Part shown: positions 372 to 27,483 of the stretch, piece after piece
How positions within the stretch are numbered: position 1 is the stretch's first letter
How the letters are laid out: every line of letters begins with the position of its first letter
Program-made: the position numbers and the translations under genes
The notes under the pieces: generated by a model
Told to the model about the DNA's origin: nothing
Databases searched by the model: none
What the model saw: only the letters and a program-made list of their open reading frames with translations
Source of the DNA: a bacterium
GTDB lineage: Bacteria; UBP6; JAFGXH01
Reading direction: 5' to 3'
Assembly (NCBI GenBank): GCA_027064085.1
Contig: JAMOQH010000174.1
Span: 1-27,941 of the forward strand
Length of the DNA stretch: 27,941 nt

Positions 372-638
372 CTATAAAAACTGAAAATCTTCTTTTTTAT
401 CTATTCCATAAACATCTCTCTTTGAATAAAGTAAACTTCTAAAAGTATAAACAATTACACTATCTCCATCACTTTCATCTATTACAGAATTTATCTCATA
501 AACAAGCTTTTTATAGTCAGCTTTACTTATATCTCCTTCAAAAACAGAATTTTGAACCCATGTTAAATATTTTCTACACATTTTTAATAACTTATTACAC
601 CTTTTTGCATTTACATCGTAAATTAAAATTACAAACAT
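372..638 (-). CDS. cas2: CRISPR-associated endoribonuclease/integrase subunit Cas2
   Basis: This 88-aa protein has the usual Cas2 length and ferredoxin-like fold signature. It has an N-terminal strand FVILIYDVN with the conserved Asp (D8), and the motif VQNSVFEGDIS near residues 28-38. Cas2 bridges two Cas1 dimers in the spacer-integration complex. It starts 8 nt downstream of cas1 and is the last protein gene of the cas operon before the leader. No truncation or unusual residues are visible. Confidence 0.95.
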   Translation of the reverse strand: MFVILIYDVNAKRCNKLLKMCRKYLTWVQNSVFEGDISKADYKKLVYEINSVIDESDGDSVIVYTFRSLLYSKRDVYGIDKKEDFQFL

Positions 639-646
639 ATCAGCTC

Positions 647-1645
647 CTACCAGTCCATAACAAATGCTTTATACTCTTGCTCTTCCATTAAGTCTTTTTC
701 TAATTTATACAACTCCATTCTAATCAATCTCCTATAACTTACTTTCTTTTTTAGTGTAGAATGTTGAATTGTTTGCTTCATCTTTTCTTCCATGGCTTTT
801 AAAAACTTTTGTTTTGCAGTGGTTTTTAACAAAATACCATTTAACCCTTTTTCAAAACTCTTCTCTGTAATAACTCCTTTATTTAGGAGTGAAAATATAG
901 TTCTATCTCCAATTATTGGCTTAAAAATCTCTGCAACATCTAAATTCAAACTAAATCTTCTAAAATTAGTAGAATGTAAAAATGCTATTCGTGGATCTAA
1001 ATGAGTTTGATAAATTTCTCCAAGTACAGCATTATAAATCATAGAGTTTGCAAAACTAATAAGTGAATTTAAATAATCTTTTGGAGGCCTTCTAGTCCTC
1101 TTGGTAAATGTAAATTCATCGTCGTTTATAATTTCATTAAAACCATCGTAGTATATTTTTTTATTATCCCCTTCTATTGCCATAGATGTCTCAATTGTTG
1201 TTTTTGTTTTTAAATTTTCTAGATTTCTCTCAATTTTCTCTATTTGTCCTTCTAATTTTCGTCCTCTTCTATTATAATATTTTAATATTTTCAAACTGTT
1301 TTTTCCTGCTCCAATTATAAATTGCTTTGCTAAATTTAACCTCTTTTCGTAATTTTCATACGCAGAAGCCTGTTTTAATATCATAAACCCCGAATTATAA
1401 TGCTCTCTTGGGTAAAAACTCCCCATATACCAACCATAATAATTAAAATACGATAGAATAATTTCTTTTTGACTTAAAAATTCTAAAACTCTCTTATTTA
1501 AATCAACTTCACCAAAAATTAAAATTTCCTTTACCCTTTCGACAGGAATAAATCGTTTTTTCTCTTCTTCTCCTGCTAAAAATAACAGAGTATTATCTTT
1601 TCTTTTAAATTTTCCAGAGCTGAATATGTATACTGTTTCTTTCAT
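647..1645 (-). CDS. cas1: CRISPR integrase Cas1 (type I-B)
   Basis: This 332-aa protein is of standard length. It has an N-terminal beta-rich domain and a C-terminal helical catalytic domain. The metal-binding residues are visible as E158 (AIEG), H224 (PRIAFLHST) and E239 (LDVAEIFKP). Cas1 catalyses insertion of new spacers with Cas2, and Cas4 helps select PAM-containing ends. The start codon follows a TGAGG-type ribosome-binding site. Unlike a compact adaptation operon, cas1 is separated from cas4 by about 570 nt holding a decayed toxin/chaperone remnant, so it may rely on its own promoter or on read-through. Confidence 0.96.
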   Translation of the reverse strand: MKETVYIFSSGKFKRKDNTLLFLAGEEEKKRFIPVERVKEILIFGEVDLNKRVLEFLSQKEIILSYFNYYGWYMGSFYPREHYNSGFMILKQASAYENYEKRLNLAKQFIIGAGKNSLKILKYYNRRGRKLEGQIEKIERNLENLKTKTTIETSMAIEGDNKKIYYDGFNEIINDDEFTFTKRTRRPPKDYLNSLISFANSMIYNAVLGEIYQTHLDPRIAFLHSTNFRRFSLNLDVAEIFKPIIGDRTIFSLLNKGVITEKSFEKGLNGILLKTTAKQKFLKAMEEKMKQTIQHSTLKKKVSYRRLIRMELYKLEKDLMEEQEYKAFVMDW

Positions 1646-1777
1646 ATATACCTCAAAATAAATTTATACTCTTGATTTATATATCGGTCATTAAGCTTGA
1701 AATCTTAATTCCCAAATTTAAGCTAAATATCTTAAATTTTTCGTTCAACCACCCAAGAGGTGTTTTCACTCTTTTTA

Positions 1778-2159
1778 TTATTTATTATTTTCTATTGAAA
1801 AATTCAATGTGGGTAATATTATTGCAGGAATATTCATTTGAGATGTATAAGATGTCACTATTGCTCTTGCAAAAGGATATAAGATTGCAGGAGCATTTTG
1901 TTTATATAAGGTTTCAAATAGTTCATCTGGCATATTTTCATTGCCTTGCCCCCTTTAATTTGAAGAGAAAGACTAAAGGTTTTCTTTAGAGAAGCAACAT
2001 CAAGATTAAATACAACTTCTACAAATCTATTGTCTTCAGGAGTAAATCTATTTTCTATTCTCCTAGCCATTCTTTTTTACCAGATAAATTAAATTTTTTA
2101 TCAGCTTGGATACTTAAAGATGCCTCTTTAGATGTCCCATGATAACCAATAAACTTCAT
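1778..2159 (-). pseudogene. Decayed ART-like toxin N-terminus joined to a frameshifted SecB-like chaperone
   Basis: Two protein remnants lie back to back. From ATG 2159, after a strong purine-rich Shine-Dalgarno, 34 codons read MKFIGYHGTSKE...KKEWLGE and then stop at 2055-2057. The YHGTS...WLGE pattern resembles the start of ADP-ribosyltransferase-fold toxins. Immediately downstream, another frame reads RFTPEDNRFVEVVFNLDVA...SLSLQIKGG. After a one-base loss near 1950 a third frame continues ENMPDELFETLYKQNAPAIL...MNIPAIILPTLNF to the stop at 1778. That second part has the strand pattern and the 'NAPAIL.P..R..V...T' signature of the SecB family. The function is evidently lost. Toxin family assignment is moderately certain; SecB-like is more certain. 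Confidence 0.6.
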
Positions 2160-2188
2160 TTAACTCCCTCCCCTAAGACCTTATTTAT

Positions 2189-2216
2189 ATTATAAGCAAA
2201 TAAGGAAGAATGTAAA
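2189..2216 (-). promoter_or_regulatory. Sigma-70-type promoter of the toxin remnant
   Basis: On the minus strand a -35 TTTACA (2211-2216) and a perfect -10 TATAAT (2189-2194) are separated by 16 nt. They lie about 30 nt upstream of the remnant's start codon and just after the cas4 stop (2218). It may now serve to transcribe cas1-cas2. Confidence 0.5.
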
Positions 2217-2217
2217 A

Positions 2218-2709
2218 TTATGCCCAGCAAAACTCATTATAAGAACAAGTCTTACAATACTTAATTCGTTTACTTATTGGAGGCTTCTCTTTACTTAAAA
2301 CATCTTGAATTTCAGATATTAATTTCTCAAGTTCAGTTTTCTTTTCTTCTGTTAAAATAATGGGAACAATCTTTTTTTCTTCAGGAATTCTTATTTCTCC
2401 TATAATATTACTGTTTCTTAAGCTATAAATATAATATAAAAGCTGAAATTCAGAACTTTCTATAGCTTTTGATGATTTTTTGACTTCAACAAGTATAATT
2501 TTACCATTTTCAGGCCTTACTATATCTAATATATTATTCCCTACTCTCACTTCTTTTTTGGAGTTTTTATAAGTAGTTTCTGATATTAATCGTCCTATTG
2601 CCAGTGATTCATCTTGTTGATTTCCGACTAAGTTTCTGCTCATTAACCACGCTTGTCTAGGGCAAATTTTATATGCCTGAATTAATGAACCATAAATATT
2701 TATTTTCAT
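2218..2709 (-). CDS. cas4: CRISPR-associated exonuclease Cas4
   Basis: This 163-aa RecB-family (PD-(D/E)xK) nuclease has an iron-sulfur cluster. The four cluster cysteines are C16 (ICPRQ), C152, C155 and C161 (YCKTCSYNEFC). The nuclease core shows D62, the E75-V-K77 pair (LVEVKKS) and a Q89..Y93 motif. Cas4 trims prespacer ends and enforces PAM choice with Cas1/Cas2. Its start codon overlaps the stop of the preceding nuclease-like gene by 4 nt, so its translation is coupled to that accessory gene rather than to a cas gene. Length and motifs look intact. Confidence 0.95.
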   Translation of the reverse strand: MKINIYGSLIQAYKICPRQAWLMSRNLVGNQQDESLAIGRLISETTYKNSKKEVRVGNNILDIVRPENGKIILVEVKKSSKAIESSEFQLLYYIYSLRNSNIIGEIRIPEEKKIVPIILTEEKKTELEKLISEIQDVLSKEKPPISKRIKYCKTCSYNEFCWA

Positions 2710-3149
2710 AACTTTTCAATATCCTTTTCTAAAATTATATTCTTATTTTCATATTTAACTTGATATAGCTTCATAAAAATTTCTTTTGCTTTATTTATAT
2801 TATTTCTTGATTTAGGCATTGTTTTGGTTCCAATAGAATAAGCATAAACCTTGTTAAAACAAAGATATCTTAAGTTTTTAATTGAATTATTCAATTGTTT
2901 TATTGCATGATTTATATTTTTTCCATTAAGCTCAATAAAAATACTAACATTCTTATCATCAGAGTTTAGAATATAATCACACCTCTGAAGTAAATAGTCA
3001 TATTTATTACAATCATCTAACTTAATTACTCCGATATTATAATTATTTTTATTTATTAATCTAAAAGTTGATTTCTCTTCTTTTTTAGAAATAATCTTAT
3101 TGCTTTCAATTTTACAACAATAAAAGTTTTTACATAACAAATTACTCAT
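2706..3149 (-). CDS. Nuclease-like partner of ATPase-1 (possible PD-(D/E)xK fold)
   Basis: This 147-aa protein has no family I can name with certainty. A central stretch (about residues 40-92) has an acidic residue D58 in RCDYIL, followed by a strand FIELNGK (E73) and a helix with HAIKQLNNSI. That arrangement recalls the D...ExK core of restriction-like nucleases paired with ATPases. The usual Lys position is Asn75 here, with K77 two residues on, so catalytic competence is uncertain. The N-terminus carries several Cys (C6, C11, C12). It overlaps the ATPase-1 gene by 8 nt and cas4 by 4 nt, implying a coupled ATPase-1/nuclease/cas4 unit. A defence role is inference. Confidence 0.5.
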   Translation of the reverse strand: MSNLLCKNFYCCKIESNKIISKKEEKSTFRLINKNNYNIGVIKLDDCNKYDYLLQRCDYILNSDDKNVSIFIELNGKNINHAIKQLNNSIKNLRYLCFNKVYAYSIGTKTMPKSRNNINKAKEIFMKLYQVKYENKNIILEKDIEKL

Positions 3150-4335
3150 ACTTTATATCCAGTAATAAATCAAAATCGGAATCTAAAACTTCTGAAGTGG
3201 TATCAATATACTCTGCATTAATAAGTTTAATATCATCATCCACTATAGAATTAACATTTGAACCCTTTTTTACCTCATAAGCAGTAATATCATCAATATT
3301 TAACCATAAATATTTTGGTATTATTTTAGTAATTAATTCTTTTTTATCCTTTTTAAGCTTATAGGTATTATCAGCTTGAATTAAATTATTTAAAGATGTC
3401 AAAATATATGGACTATGAGTCGTAATCAGCAAAGAACTATTACTTTCTTTTGTTACTAAAATCAATAACTCTAATAATGCTTTTTGATCCTCAGGAAATA
3501 AACTTATTTCAGGTTCTTCAAATATTATCAATCTATTTGTTTTATTACCTATAGCCTTTAATAACTGAGATAAAACAATTATTGCAGGAAGTAATTGTTG
3601 CTGTCCCGAAGATAACTGTTTTAGAGTAATATAATGATCATTTATATAAAATCTTTCTTCATTATTTATAATTTCATAACGTCCTTTAATTACTTGATTA
3701 ATGTATTTTTTTACTCTAGCTTTAATTTCATCAAAATTATCACTATAAGAATTAGAATACTTTTTATACATTTTTCCAAACTCTTTCATTAAAATAGAGA
3801 TATTACTATCTCCTGAAATAACAGAATAAATCGTTTCATTTAATATCGTAAAAAAACTTCTTTCTGTAGGAAAATAAATAGGATTTAACTTGTTTTCAAA
3901 AACATTATTAGATAGTTTTTCATTAATATTCTCAAGGATTTCGAAATCAAGTGTATTTTCATAGTTTTCAGATAGTTTTTTATTCTTTTCATAAAAAGTT
4001 TCAATATCAATAGATAATTTTTCAGAAATTTTAGCATTCCATGAGTCTATTTTATCACTCTTTATGTTAATGTATTTATCTTCTGTATAATAAAAAATTA
4101 TTTCAAAATCAAAATAATTTTTACCAAATATAGAAATATAGTTTACAAGTAAACGATGAGCCATATCATTAGCGCCTCTAATTTTATACTTATCTCTATA
4201 AAACCCCAAAAACAAATAAACAAGTTTTGCAATTAACGATTTTCCTGTTGCAGACTTACCTATGAAAATATTAAAATCTTTTACTTCTATATTTGCATTC
4301 TCAATCGGCCCAAATTTTTTTATTATTATCTTCAT
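3142..4335 (-). CDS. ABC/OLD-like AAA ATPase (ATPase-1)
   Basis: This 397-aa protein has a complete ABC-type ATPase core split by a helical insert. It has Walker A GKSATGKS (26-33), signature LSSGQQQ (241-247), Walker B RLIIFEEPE (268-276) and an H-loop TTHSPY (305-310). It matches the AAA_15/AAA_21 OLD-like ATPases common in phage-defence pairs. No TOPRIM nuclease domain is attached. The roughly 75-residue C-terminal tail has no recognised domain. The nuclease-like gene downstream overlaps by 8 nt and is the likely effector partner. A promoter lies upstream in the short gap after cas6. Defence function is inferred from architecture and neighbourhood. Confidence 0.8.
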   Translation of the reverse strand: MKIIIKKFGPIENANIEVKDFNIFIGKSATGKSLIAKLVYLFLGFYRDKYKIRGANDMAHRLLVNYISIFGKNYFDFEIIFYYTEDKYINIKSDKIDSWNAKISEKLSIDIETFYEKNKKLSENYENTLDFEILENINEKLSNNVFENKLNPIYFPTERSFFTILNETIYSVISGDSNISILMKEFGKMYKKYSNSYSDNFDEIKARVKKYINQVIKGRYEIINNEERFYINDHYITLKQLSSGQQQLLPAIIVLSQLLKAIGNKTNRLIIFEEPEISLFPEDQKALLELLILVTKESNSSLLITTHSPYILTSLNNLIQADNTYKLKKDKKELITKIIPKYLWLNIDDITAYEVKKGSNVNSIVDDDIKLINAEYIDTTSEVLDSDFDLLLDIKYE

Positions 4336-4357
4336 AATCTACCTATAAAACCAATTT

Positions 4358-4386
4358 ATAATACAATATAAATTGATTTTTATCAA
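4358..4386 (-). promoter_or_regulatory. Promoter upstream of the ATPase-1 module
   Basis: On the minus strand TTGATA (4381-4386) and TATTAT (4358-4363) are 17 nt apart, in the 59-nt gap between the cas6 stop and the ATPase-1 start. The -35 lies inside a small inverted repeat, ATTGAT-AAAA-ATCAAT, which could be an operator. In such A+T-rich DNA chance matches are frequent. Confidence 0.45.
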
Positions 4387-4394
4387 TATTCCCT

Positions 4395-5150
4395 TTACCT
4401 AACAACCTCAATCATACCAAACCCTTGCGAATTTCTGCCTCCTAATCCAGTATCAAGAGCAAATTTTAATAACTTAGGATTATCACTTTCTATATTAAAA
4501 TATCCTTTCCAACCTTTAACCAAAGTTCTCTTTTCTCCTGTACCGAAATATACAATTTTTTCATTATTTTTATTTTTAAAAAGCGGTTTTATAGTAAATG
4601 ATGATTCAATTTCTTCTTTATAATATACACTCCATTTTTTTATTAAATTATCTCTAATCAAAATACTAAACTCTTCTTCAAAGGGTGAATAATAATGAGT
4701 AAAATTTTTACCATTTGCCTTTTTGAAAGTTGAGTGCATTTCTATAGGAGTAACTGCATTTATCTTTAAAATATTATTACGAGGAAGCATAGTATTTATC
4801 ACATTTACAGATGATACAAATAATTTATTATTTCCCAATCTTACTTCGTTGGCATTAATAAAAGTCCTTGCCATGTCTTCAAGAATATAATCAACAGGAG
4901 AAGAAATATAAAAACTAATACTTTGTGGAAACTTAAATTCTTTTTTTATTTTATCAAAGCTCCCTCTTTCTAAAATTGAAGAAAATGTAAAAAGTTTAAA
5001 CTTTCTTTTTTCATATAAAAAACCTTCATCATGAAGTTTTTCAGAAAGCTTATCTGATATATTATTATATATTAAGGCTTGTAACAAAGCGTTGTAGCCC
5101 GTTTTGAGGATTATGATTTGGTTTGATATTAATTCTATTTTTATTTTCAT
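4395..5150 (-). CDS. cas6: CRISPR RNA endoribonuclease Cas6
   Basis: This 251-aa protein has a typical two-RRM Cas6 length. The N-terminal half carries the LHDEGF motif, whose His40 is the probable general catalytic residue. The C-terminus ends in the glycine-rich RNA-binding loop GLGGRNSQGFGMIEV. Cas6 cuts pre-crRNA within each repeat and stays bound to the 3' hairpin in type I-B Cascade. A good ribosome-binding site (AAAGGA, 5 nt before ATG) fixes the start. The gene sits between the two ATPase-nuclease pairs, away from the effector genes, whereas in many I-B loci cas6 is at the operon end beside cas8b. Confidence 0.93.
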   Translation of the reverse strand: MKIKIELISNQIIILKTGYNALLQALIYNNISDKLSEKLHDEGFLYEKRKFKLFTFSSILERGSFDKIKKEFKFPQSISFYISSPVDYILEDMARTFINANEVRLGNNKLFVSSVNVINTMLPRNNILKINAVTPIEMHSTFKKANGKNFTHYYSPFEEEFSILIRDNLIKKWSVYYKEEIESSFTIKPLFKNKNNEKIVYFGTGEKRTLVKGWKGYFNIESDNPKLLKFALDTGLGGRNSQGFGMIEVVR

Positions 5151-5174
5151 GTGTGTCCTTTTATTAAAATAAAA

Positions 5175-5759
5175 TCAACAATTACAAATTGTAGGATTTG
5201 GTAAAACGGGTTTAATCATTGATATTTTATTTTTATATTTAAATAGTATAGTTCTACGGTAATATCTTAAATTATAACTTTTAAATAATTTTTCATATTC
5301 TTCTTGAGTGATGCTTTTATATCTCTTCTTGAGTTTTACTCCATAAGGATCACTAATAAAATAGCAATAAAAATTATTTATCTCAAAATCAAATAAATTC
5401 TTAAATCTATCTTTTAAAAAATCATCTATTGTTGTTTTAAATTTTTCCTCAATATCTTTTATTTTAAAACCTTGAGGAGATTTTATATTTTTTAATTCAA
5501 TTAAATATAAATTATAAATATCCTTTTTTATATTCTTTCTTTTTGGGATTTTACATTTTATTGGAATAAGACAATCTATAGATTTTGGAATTTGTTTTTT
5601 CTTAAAAGGATAATTATTATAATAATTATCTACTTTAACAACTAAATAATCATCATTACAAACTAATTTACTACAGATTTTAGCTTCAATGTTATTTTCA
5701 TTACATTTAGAAGATAAATATTTATTTAAATCTCTATTATTAATAATTTCATCAAACAT
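5175..5759 (-). CDS. Nuclease-like partner of ATPase-2 (D...ExK motif)
   Basis: This 194-aa protein is not one I can name, but it has a plausible PD-(D/E)xK core. D62 (KSIDCLIPI) leads into the strand YLIELKN with E88 and K90, followed by a helix with KFKTTIDDFL. Such a D-xn-ELK arrangement is typical of small nucleases encoded beside OLD-like or ABC-like ATPases. The tail ends in a Cys-containing ICNC. Its ATG overlaps the ATPase-2 stop (TAATG), so the two are translationally coupled. It differs in length and sequence from the 2706-3149 protein, so the two modules are not recent duplicates. Defence function is inferred. Confidence 0.55.
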   Translation of the reverse strand: MFDEIINNRDLNKYLSSKCNENNIEAKICSKLVCNDDYLVVKVDNYYNNYPFKKKQIPKSIDCLIPIKCKIPKRKNIKKDIYNLYLIELKNIKSPQGFKIKDIEEKFKTTIDDFLKDRFKNLFDFEINNFYCYFISDPYGVKLKKRYKSITQEEYEKLFKSYNLRYYRRTILFKYKNKISMIKPVLPNPTICNC

Positions 5760-7120
5760 TAATCCTCATATTTATTTAAATTATCAATAAAATTCAATTT
5801 CTCGTTATAAAGTTTTTCAGATGTATAAATAAAGTTTTCATCTTTAATTCCTAATTCACTTACATTAACATTAATAACTCTTGTTCCCTTTTCAGACTCC
5901 TTAAAGAACAAACAACTGGCCTTATTAATATTAACATCTTTTGATAAAATTAAGTTATTTAATTGATCAAGCATATAATCACTGTGAGTTGTTATTATAA
6001 TTTTAACATTAAGCTTTGATAATTCAATAAATTTTTTCAATAATTCAATTTGCACTTCTGGATGTAAGTGAGCTTCTGGTTCTTCTATCATTATTATATT
6101 ATTCTCATTATTATTTATAATATATTTCAAATATGCAACTATAAAAGTAATTTCTGAAACCATAGAAGATGTAAAAGCTAAATCTAAATTTAAATCAGTA
6201 CCATTTGGTAAAAATGTTAATTTTTTATTCTCTTTATTAAAAGAAACCTTTCCATTTAATATATTATTTTCTATTTCAGAAGCAATTTTTTCAATTTCTA
6301 AGTTTTTTTTATCACTATTTTCTTTGATACTCACAAGATTTATATAATAGTCACTTATGGGAACAGACATTGTTGGGATTTTTATATCATATGATATTTC
6401 AGTTCTTTTTTGAGATAATTCTGCAAAAATTTGTCCAAATGAATTCATTGATTGATAAATTCCAGAACGAGATGCAGGAAGGTAATAAATGTTTTTTAGA
6501 TCTTTTAATTCAGAAAATATTTCTTTTTGTAAATTATCTATAGAAGCTTTATAATTAAACTCTTCATTATCTTCATCATAATTATCTTTAGAAATTTGCT
6601 CAATACAAATTTCTCTAAACCTATCAGATGAATTTTCATATCCATTACCTATTACTTCAAAGTAAAAAATACCATTTTTAATTTTGATATGAAATATAAA
6701 AAAATATGTACTAATAATAATATTTAAATCATTATTATTATATTGGTTTTGTAAGTTTTCTATAGAATCAAAGCTATTCTTAAAAGAATTATTTAAATTT
6801 TTAATGAAAACTCCATTATTTAAGTCACCTTTTATATCTGAGTTATCTGATAAAGCCTCTATTGAGTCTTTATCTTCAGCTTTTAGAGCCTGTTTAAATT
6901 CTTCTTGCTCTAAAGGTGACTTTAATAGCGTTATATTTTTATGAATAAATTCAGAATTAAAATCCTCTATTAAATAAGGTAGATTTTTAATAATTAAATA
7001 AACAGCAGTCATTGCATAAGACTTACCTGTATTATTTGCTCCAATAATAAAAGTAAAATCATCATCAGTATCAAATTCAAATCTTTCTATTATTCCAAAA
7101 TTTTCTAAAATTATTTTCAT
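5759..7120 (-). CDS. ABC/AAA_15-type ATPase with degenerate signature (ATPase-2)
   Basis: This 453-aa ATPase begins with MKIILENFGIIERFEF, a usual opening for OLD/RecF-like ATPases. It has Walker A GANNTGKS (27-34), a conserved YYLPASRSG segment (212-220), Walker B IIMIEEPE (342-349) with AHLHPE, and an H-loop TTHS (377-380). Where ATPase-1 has LSSGQQQ, this protein has TSSMVSE (317-323), a variant signature seen in a separate group of defence-type ATPases. Residues 70-210 form an acidic, helical insert. A promoter lies between it and cas3, and the downstream nuclease-like gene overlaps its stop. It is probably the sensor/motor of a two-gene module. Confidence 0.78.
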   Translation of the reverse strand: MKIILENFGIIERFEFDTDDDFTFIIGANNTGKSYAMTAVYLIIKNLPYLIEDFNSEFIHKNITLLKSPLEQEEFKQALKAEDKDSIEALSDNSDIKGDLNNGVFIKNLNNSFKNSFDSIENLQNQYNNNDLNIIISTYFFIFHIKIKNGIFYFEVIGNGYENSSDRFREICIEQISKDNYDEDNEEFNYKASIDNLQKEIFSELKDLKNIYYLPASRSGIYQSMNSFGQIFAELSQKRTEISYDIKIPTMSVPISDYYINLVSIKENSDKKNLEIEKIASEIENNILNGKVSFNKENKKLTFLPNGTDLNLDLAFTSSMVSEITFIVAYLKYIINNNENNIIMIEEPEAHLHPEVQIELLKKFIELSKLNVKIIITTHSDYMLDQLNNLILSKDVNINKASCLFFKESEKGTRVINVNVSELGIKDENFIYTSEKLYNEKLNFIDNLNKYED

Positions 7121-7147
7121 TATTAAATCCCTAAATAAATACTATTT

Positions 7148-7176
7148 AATATACAGTTTAATCATGTATTTGGCAA
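7148..7176 (-). promoter_or_regulatory. Promoter upstream of the ATPase-2 module
   Basis: On the minus strand TTGCCA (7171-7176) and TATATT (7148-7153) are separated by 17 nt, in the 75-nt gap between the cas3 stop and ATPase-2. An AGGG ribosome-binding site then precedes the ATPase-2 ATG. This would allow the module to be expressed apart from the upstream cas genes. Confidence 0.45.
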
Positions 7177-7195
7177 ATAGTTAGATAAATATAAT

Positions 7196-9676
7196 TTACC
7201 AAAAATTACTTTTACATCTTTCCTGATACCCTTTTCTATTAAATTTTAAATCCTCTGTAATGAAATCTTCATAGTCTTCAATATAATAAATTCCTCCAAC
7301 TTCTTCAATCCAGCCACAAGGCTTATTATTTTCTCCATATTTTATAATATTAAATGTAAAAAACTGCATTAACGAATTAATTCTAGATTTTTCAATTTTC
7401 ATTTCGGTAAAACTTTCAATTTCTCTTAATCCTTTAAATTTATTCCAAACTTTTTTACCATCTAAAAAATTATTTGTTAATAAATTATTATCAATATTTT
7501 TAAATTCTTTGATATCATATTGATTTATATCTATTTTAAAAGGAAAATATAAAGTATAGTTCTGTGAATTTATTAATGTCATTGTTTTACTAATTTCAGA
7601 ATAATTTAATTTAGATATATGGGTATTAAAAGTATCAATATTTGTAGATATACCATTTTCAAACTTTAATCCATTTTTACTTATTTGACTTAATACTTTT
7701 TTATAAAAATCAGGGTAATTTTTATCCTTTAAAATTATTTGATTTTCTGTTTTCCTTAAATTAAACTCTAATCTATTATCGCCTTTATAAATACCTGTTT
7801 CATCATCTAAATAAAAAAAATAAACAACAGAATTACTTTTCTTACAAGATCTATTTACTCTTCCCATAAATTGCTCTTCACTATCAAGAGTCGAAATATC
7901 TTTGAAACCAATATCCATATCAATATCAATCCCAGCTTCAATAACCTGAGTAGCAACTATTATAATTTTAATATTATCTATCTTTGTTCTAGAAATAACA
8001 AAATCTCTATAAGCTTTATTATCATCTCCAGTTAACTCATATTTTTCAAAATTTTTATCAATTTTTTGTTTTAATATATCAAAAACTTCTCTAGCTGTAT
8101 CTTTTTTTATAAACTCAAAAAGTATTTTTTTATTGCTATTAAGTTCTTTACTAAAGATAGTTAACAAATTTTTAAGTCGCTTTTCTCTTAATTCATCATT
8201 TTTATTAAAATTTTCATTTTCTAATAATGAGAAATTAAGTTTTACCCTTTCCTTAAAAAGGCTATTTTTAAAATAGTAGTTTCTGTCCTTAATTAGACTA
8301 AAAAAGATATCTTTTTTATCATCTTTTAATAATAAATCAAGTTTAGGTAAAGTTGCACTCATTATTATTATCTTAATATTTAATAACTTCGCATATTTCT
8401 GAAAAAATTCAATAATATACCACCATAAATTATTATTATATGACTGAATTTCATCAATAATCACAACAGAGTTTGCAAGTTGCCATAAAGGATAATTATC
8501 TTCTTTTGATGTTCCAAATAAAATGTTAAATAAAGAAACATGGGTTGTTAAAATAATTGGGTTATGAAAGAATAATCTGTTCATATATGATTTATCATAT
8601 TCACTCTCTTCATCTTCCTGATTTTTATATTTTTTATCCACTTTAATAGGTGTAATAGAATTTATTACTTCAATATTAACAGTATTTGAAAATATTTCAT
8701 CAAATGTATTTTTAGTCTGCTCAACCAGTGTATTAAAAGGAAATATATAGAATAATTTATTTAAATTATTATCTTTCTCCAATAGTTTTAGTCCTAAATT
8801 TATAGAGGTAAGTGTTTTTCCACTACCTGTTGGAGCTTCAAGGTAAAAAATATTTTTATCTATATTATTTTGAATCCTTTTTTCAGCCTCAAGAAACATT
8901 TCACATCTTAATTTATTAATATCATTATCTCTAAATTTTAAATCTCCATTTTGAAATTCTCTTATACTTTGGATAACTTTATTTGATTCAAATTTTGTTA
9001 ATAGTAATTTTTTTTGAGTTTCTGATAGTACACCAAAATCATCTGTTTTTAAATCTGTCATATATTCAGCAGTAGCATAATAATCACTACTAACTAATAG
9101 AGAAAATAAAAGTTTGTTTAAGATATAAAATTCAAAATTAGGAATATTCAAATCTCGTTTTAGAAGATTTTGAAATTTTATATCATTTTTAAAGTTAAAA
9201 TCCTTAAATGAAGATAATCTTCCATGATGTTTTGATATTTGATATGCAAAACTATACAGAATATATAATAAACAATAATAATCACGGTCTTCTTTAATCT
9301 TTTCAATTTCTTTCATAAAAATATTAATATATTTTTTAGCAGATAATAAAGAGTGTTGTGATGATTCTGTTGTTATGTCAAAATGTTCATTATCCATTTT
9401 ATTTTTTTGAAATGATGGGTTAATTTTACCTAAATCATGTAAGTAAACAGCATTATAAAACATTTTTTTTAATAAATTATGATGAGGTCTTGATACAGAA
9501 AACAACAAACCATCTATTATTTTATTAAGTTTTTTTGTGCTTATCAAAAATTCTAAATATTCTTTAGTTAAATTTAAATGTTCCTCTAATGTTTCTTTTT
9601 TCTTATTTTTCTTTCTATGAGCAAAGATTATACTTAAGTTATCAACCAAATTTAATTCTTCTAAATTTAAATACAT
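7196..9676 (-). CDS. cas3: CRISPR nuclease-helicase Cas3 (HD domain fused to helicase)
   Basis: This 826-aa protein has an N-terminal HD nuclease (H33; H80-D81 in YLHDLGK; H108; H150-H151 in KHHGRL). A superfamily 2 helicase follows, with Walker A EAPTGSGKT (about 280-288), DEIQ (408-411), SAT (440-442) and a motif VI-like QFMGRVNRS. Cas3 is recruited by target-bound Cascade and degrades the foreign strand. All catalytic HD and helicase residues that I can check are present. The start follows AGGAAAAC-ATG. It ends at a gap carrying a promoter for the ATPase-2 module, which interrupts the cas order. Confidence 0.96.
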   Translation of the reverse strand: MYLNLEELNLVDNLSIIFAHRKKNKKKETLEEHLNLTKEYLEFLISTKKLNKIIDGLLFSVSRPHHNLLKKMFYNAVYLHDLGKINPSFQKNKMDNEHFDITTESSQHSLLSAKKYINIFMKEIEKIKEDRDYYCLLYILYSFAYQISKHHGRLSSFKDFNFKNDIKFQNLLKRDLNIPNFEFYILNKLLFSLLVSSDYYATAEYMTDLKTDDFGVLSETQKKLLLTKFESNKVIQSIREFQNGDLKFRDNDINKLRCEMFLEAEKRIQNNIDKNIFYLEAPTGSGKTLTSINLGLKLLEKDNNLNKLFYIFPFNTLVEQTKNTFDEIFSNTVNIEVINSITPIKVDKKYKNQEDEESEYDKSYMNRLFFHNPIILTTHVSLFNILFGTSKEDNYPLWQLANSVVIIDEIQSYNNNLWWYIIEFFQKYAKLLNIKIIIMSATLPKLDLLLKDDKKDIFFSLIKDRNYYFKNSLFKERVKLNFSLLENENFNKNDELREKRLKNLLTIFSKELNSNKKILFEFIKKDTAREVFDILKQKIDKNFEKYELTGDDNKAYRDFVISRTKIDNIKIIIVATQVIEAGIDIDMDIGFKDISTLDSEEQFMGRVNRSCKKSNSVVYFFYLDDETGIYKGDNRLEFNLRKTENQIILKDKNYPDFYKKVLSQISKNGLKFENGISTNIDTFNTHISKLNYSEISKTMTLINSQNYTLYFPFKIDINQYDIKEFKNIDNNLLTNNFLDGKKVWNKFKGLREIESFTEMKIEKSRINSLMQFFTFNIIKYGENNKPCGWIEEVGGIYYIEDYEDFITEDLKFNRKGYQERCKSNFW

Positions 9677-9691
9677 GTTTTCCTACTTTAT

Positions 9692-11859
<2,168 letters not shown>

Positions 11860-11863
<4 letters not shown>

Positions 11864-12237
11864 TCCTCTTTCTTCACATAAAAAATATTATCACTTAAAA
11901 CACCAATTAAAAAATTATCCATATTATGTGATAATTTATCTTCAGAAGAATAGGACATAACTAAACTAATTGCATTATTAAATTTAACATAATTTAAGCT
12001 AACCGCATGCTTATATTTAAAATATACAACTTCAATATTCTTTTTTATTTTCTGAGCATTATTAGCTCGTAAAAAAGGCTCTAACATATCTCCTTTTTTT
12101 TCAAAAGCTTCACTATGATTAAGTAAATATTTAACAACTTGCCCCGCAAGATAAAAAAATTCTTCTGCTGACAACTCTTTATAATCTGAATCAATTAATC
12201 TATTTAACATATTTGTTTGCATCTCTTTTATATTCAT
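11860..12237 (-). CDS. cas11: Internal in-frame Cas11b small subunit within cas8b
   Basis: At residue 433 of Cas8b an ATG (12235-12237) is preceded by AAGGAG (12246-12251) with 8 nt spacing, an ideal Shine-Dalgarno inside a coding region. Translation from it gives a 125-aa helical protein (MNIKEMQTNMLNRLIDSDYK...) in the same frame, ending at the cas8b stop. Production of Cas11 from an internal start in cas8 is established for types I-B, I-C and I-D. The size and helical content agree with a Cas11 that lines the Cascade belly. The separate translation here is inferred from the site. Confidence 0.72.
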
Positions 12238-13533
12238 AACTTTTTCTCCTTTATGAGCTAATAATGAAAGCTTCAAATTTAAACTTAACCCTGCTTTAAA
12301 AAGATTATCTCTTTTTAAATGTAAAATAACAAAATCACTACCATATTTTTTAATTACTTGGTAAAATGTTTTTTCATTATACTTTTTAAAGTAATTGACC
12401 ATTGAAGCCCTTGTAATATATATTAAATTTTGAAAAGATTTATCAAGTTTTTTATAAACTTCATTAAAATAGTTATTTTTTAATTGATTATTATAAAATA
12501 TTTCATGAACTATCTCTTCTAACTCATATAAATAATCAATTGTATCATCTTCTATAAGTTTTTTACCATTTTTAAGCATTAAGTGATTCTTAAAATATAT
12601 TGATTCTTTTAATTTATCTATCTGATTGGGAATGTAATCAAAATCATCTATAATAGCTTCATCATTTTTAGAATGTTTATTCATAAATAGATGTTCTTCA
12701 TTTTTATCTAAAGGATAATGCTCATTATAACCTTGAAACTTCAACCAATCAAAAAATTTCTTTATAATTAAAGCATTCTCATCAGTAATCATAAAGGGTA
12801 TTGTAAATTTTTTAGTCTTAGATTCTAAATATGGTTTCTTTGCATTTAATCCCATATTAGAATTTGATAAACCATAGATTGTTTCATCTAATACTTTACT
12901 ATACTTAATATCATTAAATATTTTTATTGCAAAATATATTTTACTTTCATCTTTGTACTTCTCTATATCTTCATCAAAAAAGATTTTAACATAATTTTTT
13001 ATCCCTTTTTCCTCTTTAATAGAGATGATCTCTTCAAAAATAGTTGATAATATTTTATATTTTATCGAAATATCTTTTTTTCTTTCATCATTTAAGATAT
13101 ATTGATTATAATTTTTAAGAATTTCTATCTCTTTAGGTTTATTAAAGCTTTTAAACCCTTTTAAACTTTTAAATAACTTCTCTTCTATATAATTAAGGTT
13201 TTCAGATTTGATATTATCTATTTTCATAAATAAAGTTAAATAATTATTATTATGAATCATCTTTTTAGGAGGATCAATTGCTTTATTTGAGTTTAAATAA
13301 TTACTATAATAATCTCTTTCTTTAAACCATTCAAACATTTCACTATCTAGACCACCATTAATATCCGTAAAGCTTAATTCTTTATTTTTTTTCTTTACAA
13401 TAAAGTAATTTATTGTTTCATCTTTATTAATTTTACAATAAAGTCCCTCTTTAAGAGAGTAATTACCTAATATTAATTTATCTCCCTCTTTTTTATAGGC
13501 ATCTTTAAAAACTTCCAATATATCATAAATCAT
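11860..13533 (-). CDS. cas8b: Cascade large subunit Cas8b (Csh1/TM1802-like)
   Basis: This 557-aa protein is the first gene of the cas operon, the usual place for the type I-B large subunit. The middle has YYSNYLNSNKAIDPPKKMIHNNNYLTLF, resembling Csh1/Cas8b1. The C-terminus (from about residue 433) is the helical small-subunit-like domain, with AEEFFYLAGQVVKYLL and FNNAISLVMSY. Cas8b recognises the PAM and triggers Cas3. The family diverges fast, so the call rests on length, position and the C-terminal helical bundle. A promoter with a perfect -35 TTGACA lies 55 nt upstream. An internal start for Cas11 is described separately. Confidence 0.88.
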
Positions 13534-13564: not shown

Positions 13565-13594
13565 AATATATACTCCCTTACCTTAATGTGTCAA
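13565..13594 (-). promoter_or_regulatory. Main promoter of the cas operon
   Basis: On the minus strand a consensus -35 TTGACA (13589-13594) is followed by TATATT (13565-13570, 18-nt spacer) or the overlapping TATATA (16-nt spacer). It lies 32 nt upstream of the cas8b start codon. It is the best promoter match near the cas genes. Confidence 0.6.
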
Positions 13595-13677
13595 TTATTT
13601 AAAAACATTTTTTTCGCTGTAGCACAATTAGGAGTGCAAATACCATTATTATCATTAACTTGAGTACCAAAAATCCA

Positions 13678-13708
13678 AGTAGAGACAAGGCAATGCCTTG
13701 TCTCTACT
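13678..13708 (-). repeat. 31-bp palindromic (REP-like) element
   Basis: This is a perfect inverted repeat. Arms AGTAGAGACAAGGCA (13678-13692) and TGCCTTGTCTCTACT (13694-13708) flank one central base. It begins 2 nt after the stop codon of the acyltransferase gene. There is no run of T after it on the minus strand, so it is not a standard intrinsic terminator. Its right half (ATGCCTTGTCTCTAC) recurs with one change inside the metallophosphoesterase gene at 21083-21096, so it belongs to a dispersed repeat family. Confidence 0.75.
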
Positions 13709-24460: not shown

Positions 24461-24490
24461 GAGATTATTTGAGATTATTTGAGATTATTA
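24461..24490. repeat. Three tandem 10-bp repeats at the lipoprotein gene stop
   Basis: The unit GAGATTATTT occurs at 24461-24470 and 24471-24480 and, with a final base change, at 24481-24490. The third copy contains the stop codon of the minus-strand lipoprotein gene. A 10-bp period is not a multiple of three, so copy-number change here could alter the protein's end. Confidence 0.7.
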
Positions 24491-27454
24491 ATTACTTGTT
24501 GAACAAGTGATGTTATCCATGTAAATTTCCCAGTTTTCAGAAGTGTTACCTAACCAGAATAGGGTAAACTTTTTATCTCTGTCAACAATCATAGGATAAA
24601 CGTTAAGCTCTGAATTCTGTGAAACCTGCTCCACTTGCTGTGAAACATTGCCAAGCATATCAACTCTTGCAAGATAAATATTTGAAACAGCAGTATTACT
24701 TGTATCTGGAAGTCCGTGAAATGTTATTATATATTGATTACCTGTCCAAACCATAGAAGGTTGTCTATATACTCTTGAAGAAGCAACTGCAACATTAGTT
24801 ACATTTAGCTGTTCAAGTCTTTTATTAAACTTCCAAACTTTAATAGTATTATCAGTATTTTCTGTTGCTACAAAATAAACATTTTCACCATTTTCCTTTT
24901 GCTGATGAAATGAATAATGTGTTCTTCTATTTATACCACTAACAAAGGTTTTAGGATACCCTGAAATAATATCACCTGTATCTTTATTTATTTTATAGAA
25001 CTTTAAATTATAATCATGTTCAACAACATATATCAAATACTCTCCATCAAATGAAATTTGTGTATAATCAGAATAAGTATGTCCTAAGGCTGGATATTCT
25101 TTAGAAACTAAATTAGTTGTACTTGCAGTATCATTTGAAACAATTGCCAGTCTTGCATAACGATAATCAGAATTTTCACCACTATAATTATTTCTTAAAA
25201 ATGAAATAGCAAACTTATTATCAACCCATGTTACAGAAGGTTCCTGATCAATAAAATAAGAATTATTTCCTCTATCATATACGGTTACAGGCTGACTTAA
25301 TTTATTACCATATCTGTTTATAAACACTCTTTTTAAATATCTTCCTGATTCTCTCCATACAATAATATATTTCTCATCTGTTGAATCTGCAGCAATTGCA
25401 AATTTACCAATTGTTTTACCTGCAGTATTGCCAGAGGCAGTAATTTGATATTCTGTGCCACTTGTTTGATCTCCTGAAATATTATATCTAGCCATATAAA
25501 TCTGGTCACTTCCATCTCTTTGGTCAACCCAGATTGCAATAAACTCATTTTTGCTCCAAATTATAGAATAATTAGGCCTATCACATTGGTCTGTACCATA
25601 AGTATCACTTGCATCACAGCCACTATTACTATCACCATATGTTAATCTTTTATCTGTTCCATCACTATAAACAATCCCGTTATCAACGATATTGTCACAG
25701 TTATCATCAAGAAAATTACATGTTTCAGTAGTTCCAAAATTTATATTAGCATCATTATCATTACAATCAGTACCTGTAATACCATTAGGATCTTCACACG
25801 ATGCATCTGCAAAGTTATCATCATCCACATCAGGTAACTCATATTTACAACTGTCTGTTCCTTCGTCACAATATGCAGCAGCAAGACAAGCATAAGTATC
25901 ATCATCTTGATGGCAATCTATAGGAGTACCTGATTTGCAGAAATGGTCGGTACCACAAACTTCAGAACCATTACAGTACAAATCATCATCACAGTCTCTG
26001 TCACCAAAACAGGAACTATAACAATTTAAACCGTCAGCTTTATAATTTTCATCACATTCACATGAAGCAACACCATCAGTAACAACACATGTTCCATGAC
26101 CACTACAATCCTCACCATAACATTTATCTTCTATGCAATTTAGACCATCAACTAGATAACCTTCATCACAAGCACAAACAGGTTGTTCTTCAACAACGGC
26201 ACACGTTCCATGACCACTACAAGTAATATTTGCACATAAATTTTCCATTGCTAAACAAGTTTCAGGTGCATCATTTGGACGGTAGTAACCTTGGTTACAA
26301 GAACAAGTTGCTACACCATTGGCATCAAAGCAAATACCATGACTATCTTCTGTTACTCCATCAGTACAAGAAACACCTTCACAAACTGTGCTACCTTGGT
26401 TTTCTTTACATGTATGGTCAGATTCATCACAGTATTTATTACCTAAGCAATCGCCATTTGAGGAACAAAAGCCATCTTTTGCAACACAAGCTCCTTCTTT
26501 GCACTCTTCCCAAGTATTTTCACAAGATACATTTACACAAGGATCTATAACAATACAATGTATTTTATCATCAGTAATAGCATAACCATTTGAACATAAA
26601 CAGAGAGGTTCGCCATTACTCACAACACACTGCCCATGACTTAAATCAGTATTATTTCCATCATCACAAATAACTCCATCACATGGATTCGCAGGTAGTT
26701 TGCATGTATGGTCAGATTCGTCACAGTATTTATTACCTAAGCAATCGCCATTTGTTGAACAAAAGCCATCTTTTGCAACACAAGCTCCTTCTTTACATTC
26801 TTCCCAAGTATTTTCACAAACAACATCAGCACAAGGATCAGTATTATTTTCCACACATGTTGTACCAACAGCAGTATAACCAGGTTCACAAATACAAATT
26901 GCATTATCACCACTAGGAACACAACTTCCATGACCACTACAATCTATATTTTCACATGGATTAGTAGTATCATTTTCTACACATGTTGTACCAACAGCAG
27001 TATAACCAGGTTCACAAATACAAATTGCATTATCACCACTAGGAACACAGCTTCCATGACCACTACAATCTATATTTTCACATGGATTAACTACTTTATC
27101 TTTACACAAATGACTATTTAAATCACATACCTGCTCTGTACAATCATCATCAGATACACAAAAGCCTTCTTTGGTTTCACACTTATCTTCTTTACATTCC
27201 TGCCAAGTTTCACAAACAGTATCACCACATTTATTTTCTTCTTCCTGTAAAACACAACTCGGCACACCCGCAACATCAATATTTGAATATCCTGTTTCAC
27301 ACACACAAGCAGGCTTATTATTTAATGCCACACATTGTCCATGGTCTCCACATGTAATATTCTGACACGCACTGTTATCAGTTGACCCAGAAGGGCTGTC
27401 ACTACACCCCCAAAATATAAAAACTGTGAAAAACAAAAAAATGAATTTTTTCAT
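24488..27454 (-). CDS. Secreted EGF/MopE-like multidomain lipoprotein
   Basis: This 988-aa protein starts at 27454 (GGAGGT before ATG). A lipoprotein signal MKKFIFLFFTVFIFWGC ends with the lipobox Cys17. Residues about 25-475 are Cys-rich EGF-like modules, recurrently CxNIxCSGHGxCV...CxCxxGY, alternating with ENTWEECKEGACVAKDGFCS modules. Next comes a CFGDRDCDDDLYCNG segment and an Asp/Cys motif TDCNDNDANINFGTTETCNFLDDNCDN typical of MopE/Put_metal-binding repeats. The final 400 residues are repeated beta-strand units such as SIIWSKNEFIAIWVDQRDGSDQIYMARY, suggesting a propeller. It is probably surface-exposed and involved in adhesion or metal binding; the exact role is unknown. Confidence 0.88.
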   Translation of the reverse strand: MKKFIFLFFTVFIFWGCSDSPSGSTDNSACQNITCGDHGQCVALNNKPACVCETGYSNIDVAGVPSCVLQEEENKCGDTVCETWQECKEDKCETKEGFCVSDDDCTEQVCDLNSHLCKDKVVNPCENIDCSGHGSCVPSGDNAICICEPGYTAVGTTCVENDTTNPCENIDCSGHGSCVPSGDNAICICEPGYTAVGTTCVENNTDPCADVVCENTWEECKEGACVAKDGFCSTNGDCLGNKYCDESDHTCKLPANPCDGVICDDGNNTDLSHGQCVVSNGEPLCLCSNGYAITDDKIHCIVIDPCVNVSCENTWEECKEGACVAKDGFCSSNGDCLGNKYCDESDHTCKENQGSTVCEGVSCTDGVTEDSHGICFDANGVATCSCNQGYYRPNDAPETCLAMENLCANITCSGHGTCAVVEEQPVCACDEGYLVDGLNCIEDKCYGEDCSGHGTCVVTDGVASCECDENYKADGLNCYSSCFGDRDCDDDLYCNGSEVCGTDHFCKSGTPIDCHQDDDTYACLAAAYCDEGTDSCKYELPDVDDDNFADASCEDPNGITGTDCNDNDANINFGTTETCNFLDDNCDNIVDNGIVYSDGTDKRLTYGDSNSGCDASDTYGTDQCDRPNYSIIWSKNEFIAIWVDQRDGSDQIYMARYNISGDQTSGTEYQITASGNTAGKTIGKFAIAADSTDEKYIIVWRESGRYLKRVFINRYGNKLSQPVTVYDRGNNSYFIDQEPSVTWVDNKFAISFLRNNYSGENSDYRYARLAIVSNDTASTTNLVSKEYPALGHTYSDYTQISFDGEYLIYVVEHDYNLKFYKINKDTGDIISGYPKTFVSGINRRTHYSFHQQKENGENVYFVATENTDNTIKVWKFNKRLEQLNVTNVAVASSRVYRQPSMVWTGNQYIITFHGLPDTSNTAVSNIYLARVDMLGNVSQQVEQVSQNSELNVYPMIVDRDKKFTLFWLGNTSENWEIYMDNITCSTSN
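26404..26523. repeat. Copy 1 of the ENTWEECKEG module repeat
   Basis: This segment of roughly 120 bp recurs at about 26698-26819 with only a few base differences (for example TTTGAGG against TTTGTTG). Both encode CENTWEECKEGACVAKDGFC..NGDCLGNKYCDESDHTCK within the lipoprotein. The closeness at DNA level indicates recent duplication or gene conversion. Confidence 0.8.
26847..27089. repeat. Tandem 126-bp EGF-module duplication
   Basis: Copy A (26847-26963) and copy B (26973-27089) are 117 bp each. By my reading they differ at two positions, C/T near 26852 and A/G near 26928. The offset is 126 bp, exactly 42 codons. Each encodes CENIDCSGHGSCVPSGDNAI followed by CICEPGYTAVGTTCVEN. The near identity points to a very recent in-frame duplication. 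Confidence 0.85.
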
Positions 27455-27483
27455 AACACCTCCATAAAAGTCCATTAAAACTA

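Follow-up and report, generated by a model that had tools for sequence, protein, structure and literature searches.

A type I-B CRISPR-Cas operon of a bacterium of the lineage UBP6 (JAFGXH01) contains, between cas3 and cas6, two genes for an ABC ATPase and a small putative nuclease, and this arrangement raises the question whether the gene pair is a part of the CRISPR machinery or a defence system in its own right. The window, i.e. the complete stretch of 27,941 nucleotides that was analysed (contig JAMOQH010000174.1 of assembly GCA_027064085.1), had been annotated in a preliminary description, in which the pair was proposed to be an uncharacterised two-gene defence system and its location within a cas operon was overlooked. 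Both ORFs were found as claimed; they are intact, have full length, and overlap by one nucleotide (Table 1).

The operon extends from position 372 to position 13533 on the minus strand and comprises cas8b, cas7, cas5b, cas3, cas6, cas4, cas1, and cas2, and it is accompanied by an array. The I-B set-up was confirmed by profile and tblastn matches of the cas genes and by 17 repeats across the genome. One repeat is located at the edge of the contig, and a pattern search of the genome revealed 16 others, which lie at the end of contig C39; because of these copies, the array was probably split by the assembly. In the cas direction, the gene order is cas8b, orf86, cas7, cas5, cas3, ATPase-2, nuclease, cas6, ATPase-1, partner-1, cas4, cas1, and cas2. 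The genes mostly overlap or are joined by short distances, and longer gaps precede ATPase-2 (75 nt), cas6 (24 nt), and ATPase-1 (59 nt) or separate cas4 from cas1 (572 nt). A possible promoter precedes ATPase-2, but promoter matches in this AT-rich region were not above chance. Together with the 75-nt gap, such a promoter would speak against joint transcription of ATPase-2 with the cas genes. Just upstream of cas8b (13565-13708, minus strand), a strong stem-loop with a T-rich tail is followed by a TTGACA-18-TATATT match, and this site is a plausible start of the operon. Elsewhere in the window, a gene at 24488-27475 (minus strand) encodes a probable lipoprotein of 995 aa whose Cys-rich, EGF-like repeats are arranged in tandem (repeat length 124-141 nt, up to 98% alike).

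Table 1. Features of the I-B operon in the window and the matches or characteristics by which they were assigned
Feature	Position	Strand	Match or characteristic
CRISPR repeat at contig edge	10..39	+	Rfam CRISPR-DR2, 38.9 bits
cas2	372..638	-	tblastn 39% to cas2 of Campylobacterota operons; position
cas1	647..1645	-	tblastn 44-45% to annotated cas1b genes
cas4	2218..2709	-	Pfam Cas_Cas4, 8.6e-48
partner-1, PDC-M47B-like small protein	2706..3149	-	PADLOC PDC-M47B, 1.1e-5
ATPase-1, second ABC ATPase, cas6/cas4 slot	3142..4335	-	AAA_15, 2.1e-20; PDC-M29A, 8e-26
cas6	4395..5150	-	PADLOC Cas6b, 4.8e-67
partner nuclease, PD-(D/E)XK-like, 194 aa	5175..5759	-	D62/E88/K90; moderate fold model
ATPase-2, OLD-like ABC ATPase, 453 aa	5759..7120	-	Pfam AAA_15, 3.6e-27; PADLOC PD-T4-4_A, 3.4e-31
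cas3	7196..9676	-	PADLOC Cas3b, 1.4e-256
cas5b	9692..10675	-	PADLOC Cas5b, 2.5e-43
cas7	10665..11606	-	Pfam Cas_Cas7, 4e-37
orf86, between cas8b and cas7	11603..11863	-	PtuA start joined to PtuB C-terminus
cas8b	11860..13533	-	PADLOC Cas8b, 1.8e-122

For ATPase-2, the best PADLOC model was PD-T4-4_A, which covered residues 1-394 and ranked above AriA, PDC-M47A (7e-26), and GajA/PtuA (5e-13 with the PtuA models). The protein contains a Walker A motif (GANNTGKS, residues 27-34), the segment PASRSG (215-220), a signature-like SSMV (318-321), the sequence EEPEAHLHP (346-354), and the H-loop residue H379. In all 14 homologues, the Walker A lysine K33, the PA-R-G residues, SSMV, EEPE (with E346 and E347), and H379 were invariant. 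The TSSMVSE signature and the conserved PASRSG segment, both of which had been pointed out before, are therefore well founded, the first by its SSMV core and the second by the four invariant residues P215, A216, R218, and G220. A large acidic insert had also been described; the acidic stretch exists, but it does not qualify as a signature because its region varies in length and sequence among the homologues. TOPRIM was not found in ATPase-2 by Pfam, PADLOC, and NCBIfam searches.

The partner protein had been described as a carrier of a D...ExK motif, and this motif is present as D62...E88-L-K90 and is invariant in 14 nuclease homologues. The CNC tail is equally real but no general trait of the family; it characterizes a subgroup, because only 5 of the 14 nucleases, namely the window protein and four Bacteroidota copies, have a cysteine as their final or penultimate residue. 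Nothing above chance was found for the nuclease in Pfam, PADLOC, or NCBIfam, including HNH, TOPRIM/AriB, PtuB, and helicase domains. At an E value of 0.1, PD-T4-4_B matched neither the window nuclease nor four relatives, and the comparison of the nuclease profile with PDC-M47B-like partners was not significant. The partner would thus represent a nuclease family that lacks a current profile and is missed by defence finders.

Structural modelling was used to characterize the fold. The AF2 model from the single sequence had a pLDDT of 36, and a model from nine sequences reached a pLDDT of 65 and a pTM of 0.68. In the AF2 model, D62 begins one strand and ExK is located at the end of the next strand. 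Most VIA-align matches were PD-(D/E)XK enzymes, with a best Z of 5.8. The top matches were the CRISPR ancillary nucleases Can2, Cdn1, and Card1, and the list further contained McrC, BsmI, BspD6I, FokI, and Holliday resolvases as well as some unrelated rows, e.g. acetyl-CoA carboxylase. With Foldseek, neither PDB nor the viral models contained a match at E 0.001. A PD-(D/E)XK fold is supported by the model but not proven, because the Z values do not exceed 5.8, some rows are unrelated, and Foldseek gave no significant match.

A nuclease-only search that covered 395 Bacteroidota genomes revealed four clear relatives (L054-L057), and a fifth (L067) was recovered when one class was searched with a profile. 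The gene before the nuclease was an ATPase-2 homologue at all of these loci (1e-49 to 1e-60 at L054-L057). A scan of viral contigs with the ATPase profile only yielded eight full-length relatives (L076-L083), each with a nuclease homologue as the next gene (1e-15 to 1e-30). In 13 out of 13 further loci, the ATPase gene was thus directly followed by the nuclease gene on the same strand, with a distance of -80 to +2 nt. The pairwise distances of ATPases and nucleases in the 14 pairs had a correlation of 0.93, which was above all 10,000 permutations. As judged from these sequences, ATPase-2 and the nuclease are one conserved unit, because searches with a single protein recovered both genes and the distances are correlated.

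The contigs of the viral copies are viral by their IMG/VR label, and inspection by eye placed the gene pairs among tail, baseplate, integrase-like, or single-strand-binding genes. A further locus (L060) adjoins a pair resembling a DNA methylase and a restriction enzyme as well as mobilisation genes, also by eye. When viral contigs, phages, and plasmids were scanned with the single window nuclease or ATPase, no close relative was found, and the nuclease was not found in the other 27 genomes examined of its own phylum. Among 397 Campylobacterota genomes, there were just two marginal partial nuclease matches, and both were rejected: one contained internal stops, and the other (L052) was located inside a long unrelated ORF. 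The proposal of a two-gene defence-type module of ATPase and nuclease is well supported, as the pair is conserved at 13 other loci, several of which are phage-like.

Next, the pair was compared with known systems. WonAB reportedly belongs to a class named "OLD-ABC ATPase + novel REase" by Krishnan et al., and PD-T4-4 is said to stem from the work of Vassallo et al. in 2022. For WonAB of the WASA-1 prophage of V. cholerae, it has been shown that this class acts by abortive infection; its activation stops translation after phage replication has begun, which results in growth arrest, and WonB is toxic only together with WonA (PMC12137116). The authors suspected rRNA or tRNA as the target of WonB, and they found that K34, R182, E300, and H333 of WonA and K71 of WonB are each essential for defence (PMC12137116). 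The gene pair in the window has the same order of an ATPase and a PD-(D/E)XK-like nuclease, the fold of the latter being supported by a moderate model. In ATPase-2, the Walker A lysine (K33), a mid-protein arginine (R218), the Walker B glutamate (E346/E347), and the H-loop histidine (H379) follow one another as in WonA, and K90 of the nuclease resembles K71 of WonB, a likeness drawn from published residues and architecture. Several relatives of the pair reside in phage-like contigs, as WonAB does in a prophage. In contrast, the partner has 194 aa, whereas WonB has about 16 kDa, and the pair is located inside a cas operon instead of a prophage.

ATPase-2 also matched PD-T4-4_A and PDC-M47A of the PADLOC candidate PDC-M47 over most of its length, but the nuclease matched neither PD-T4-4_B nor PDC-M47B. 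ATPase-2 falls outside the PDC-M47A family, because a true PDC-M47A such as the Annamia protein scores 1e-231. By profile matching, the pair is not a PD-T4-4 system in the strict sense, since its nuclease does not agree. Septu (PtuAB) likewise combines an AAA_15-type ATPase with a following nuclease and is found in operons of this type, at a junction close by; however, the partner has D...ExK and no HNH, and ATPase-2 matched PtuA far more weakly than PD-T4-4_A. Unlike Gabija, the pair has an ATPase of 453 aa without TOPRIM and a partner without a UvrD-like (GajB) helicase, and unlike PARIS, its partner has no TOPRIM or AriB match. The earlier exclusion of Gabija, Septu, and PARIS was therefore right, since TOPRIM, HNH, and a UvrD-like domain were all not found. 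The term "uncharacterised" was too strong, because the ATPase matches PD-T4-4_A and architecture and motifs match the WonAB class. A confident match of both genes to a described system had been named as a reason to abandon the proposal; the ATPase was matched, and the nuclease had no library match. Taken together, the pair resembles WonAB and PD-T4-4 in architecture and motifs, and since these represent a described class of abortive infection, the system is not entirely new.

The operon around the pair has two ancestries. The cas8, cas7, cas5, and cas3 genes of the window had 50-72% identity to Campylobacterota operons, and cas1, cas2, and cas4 only 31-44%. The window cas1 was nearest (about 46%) to lineages other than Campylobacterota, and cas6 had no match among the Campylobacterota operons; a 78-aa "Cas6" match in L039 was not reproduced by tblastn. 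ATPase-2 and the nuclease are placed exactly where the ancestry switches from the Campylobacterota-like cas8-7-5-3 to the unrelated cas6-4-1-2 set. As a whole, the region 372-13533 is a mosaic of Campylobacterota-like effector genes and cas6, cas4, cas1, and cas2 genes of different ancestry, and ATPase pairs are located where these parts meet.

The second pair, ATPase-1 and partner-1, was seen again at L005. In an alignment, partner-1 has IELNGKN where relatives have IELK or IEMK, i.e. ExN in place of ExK. As the nuclease lysine is replaced, partner-1 may be inactive, or it may use another lysine.

Between cas8b and cas7 lies orf86. Its residues 22-78 matched the C-termini of models for PtuB and related HNH proteins (best 1.9e-6), and its residues 3-13 matched the N-terminus of PtuA of Campylobacterota copies (z 4.4-6.9 versus shuffles). 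Intact PtuAB occupies the cas8/cas7 junction in five relatives (L021, L028, L035, L043, and L049). From these matches, orf86 is probably a deletion remnant of a Septu pair. Two of the PtuA copies (L021 14698-16209 and L028 1723-3186) are extended at the N-terminus, ahead of the ATPase domain, by a domain of about 150 residues that starts with MTYW-MQLHPND.

The survey of guest genes comprised Campylobacterota operons reached through cas3 and two plasmids. Guests were found at 22 of the 144 cas junctions of related Campylobacterota I-B operons, and all 30 guest genes were oriented in the cas direction, a count that alone proves no function because operon genes often need co-direction to survive. 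The guests included Septu, a HEPN-MNT-like pair (nucleotidyltransferase match), Bro-N, SEC-C, HipA, ParE-like proteins, GNAT with a small partner, the YhcG nuclease, Fic, a DUF4143 ATPase, and PD-T4-5/Abi-like proteins. Most guests were located at the cas8/cas7 and cas3/cas4 junctions and none at cas1/cas2 (13/43 versus 0/18, Fisher p 0.007, with junctions picked after the counts had been seen). The independent insertions are fewer than counted because some guest loci are close relatives; L021/L043, L036/L050, and L049/L051 may share one insertion each. At L051 (9284-14796), a second cas-like cassette lies between cas3 and cas4 of a I-B operon; it comprises a 559-aa gene and Cas7-like, Cas5-like, and Cas3-like genes, which were recognized by eye and from one blast match. 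Accessory genes are often included in cas operons (PMC6452270). In contrast to toxin and accessory genes of CRISPR-cas loci, the guests here are complete independent defence modules, which recur in one I-B operon lineage at several junctions that are fixed. In a search of open-access papers, no report of Septu or WonAB-like pairs within cas operons was found.

The pair is probably an anti-phage module of two genes that acts in the manner of WonAB and PD-T4-4 and was inserted into the cas operon, and the most likely reading of the comparisons is a predicted second line of defence that arrests growth and is expressed along with the CRISPR system. The OLD-type ABC ATPase would be the holding and sensing part and the PD-(D/E)XK-like nuclease the effector; both are carried in the cas direction and are probably produced along with the CRISPR system. 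We infer that the nuclease is held in check by an ATPase dimer as long as no phage-made signal is present, that the released nuclease cuts a nucleic acid such that growth stops, and that the pair serves as a fallback once CRISPR targeting fails. Growth arrest is chosen as the mechanism because WonAB stops translation and its nuclease is toxic only with the ATPase.

Related operons repeatedly contain genes of the toxin-antitoxin type in the same slots, and an ATPase-controlled nuclease could stabilise the cas operon as an addiction module, in which the nuclease would be set free and kill the cell once the ATPase is lost. However, WonB of the similar WonAB is not toxic without WonA (PMC12137116), and we regard addiction as unlikely. 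Slightly less credit is given to a dedicated ancillary factor of the I-B system, e.g. an extra effector nuclease or a factor for spacer acquisition. The position within the cas operon, the cas direction, and the best fold matches of the nuclease model to Can2, Cdn1, and Card1 would fit such a role, but these matches reflect just the common PD-(D/E)XK fold, a CARF domain was not seen, the pair occurs in none of the related I-B operons, and the surrounding DNA examined at all 13 relatives contained no homologue of the window Cas proteins. A passive, decaying passenger of recombination between two cas modules is very improbable, in spite of the location at the junction of two cas lineages next to a remnant (orf86) and a partner-1 without the ExK lysine, as both genes have full length, overlap, and retain every residue that is invariant in the relatives.

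The unusual feature of the putative anti-phage module is its location within a CRISPR operon lineage that repeatedly hosts complete modules of second-line defence, one of which has decayed. The recurring defence and toxin guests between the cas genes of relatives lead to the view that the CRISPR operon itself forms a small island of additional defences. A broader version, which we put forward tentatively and consider somewhat doubtful, is that cas junctions are landing slots for complete second-line modules expressed with CRISPR, such that adaptive immunity and abortive infection form one transferable unit and are perhaps mutually triggered. This raises the question whether guest modules respond to failed CRISPR targeting. 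If true, one CRISPR operon lineage would combine adaptive immunity with abortive-infection systems as a fallback, and guest modules would be exchanged at fixed slots, as with Septu, which is present, deleted, or replaced.
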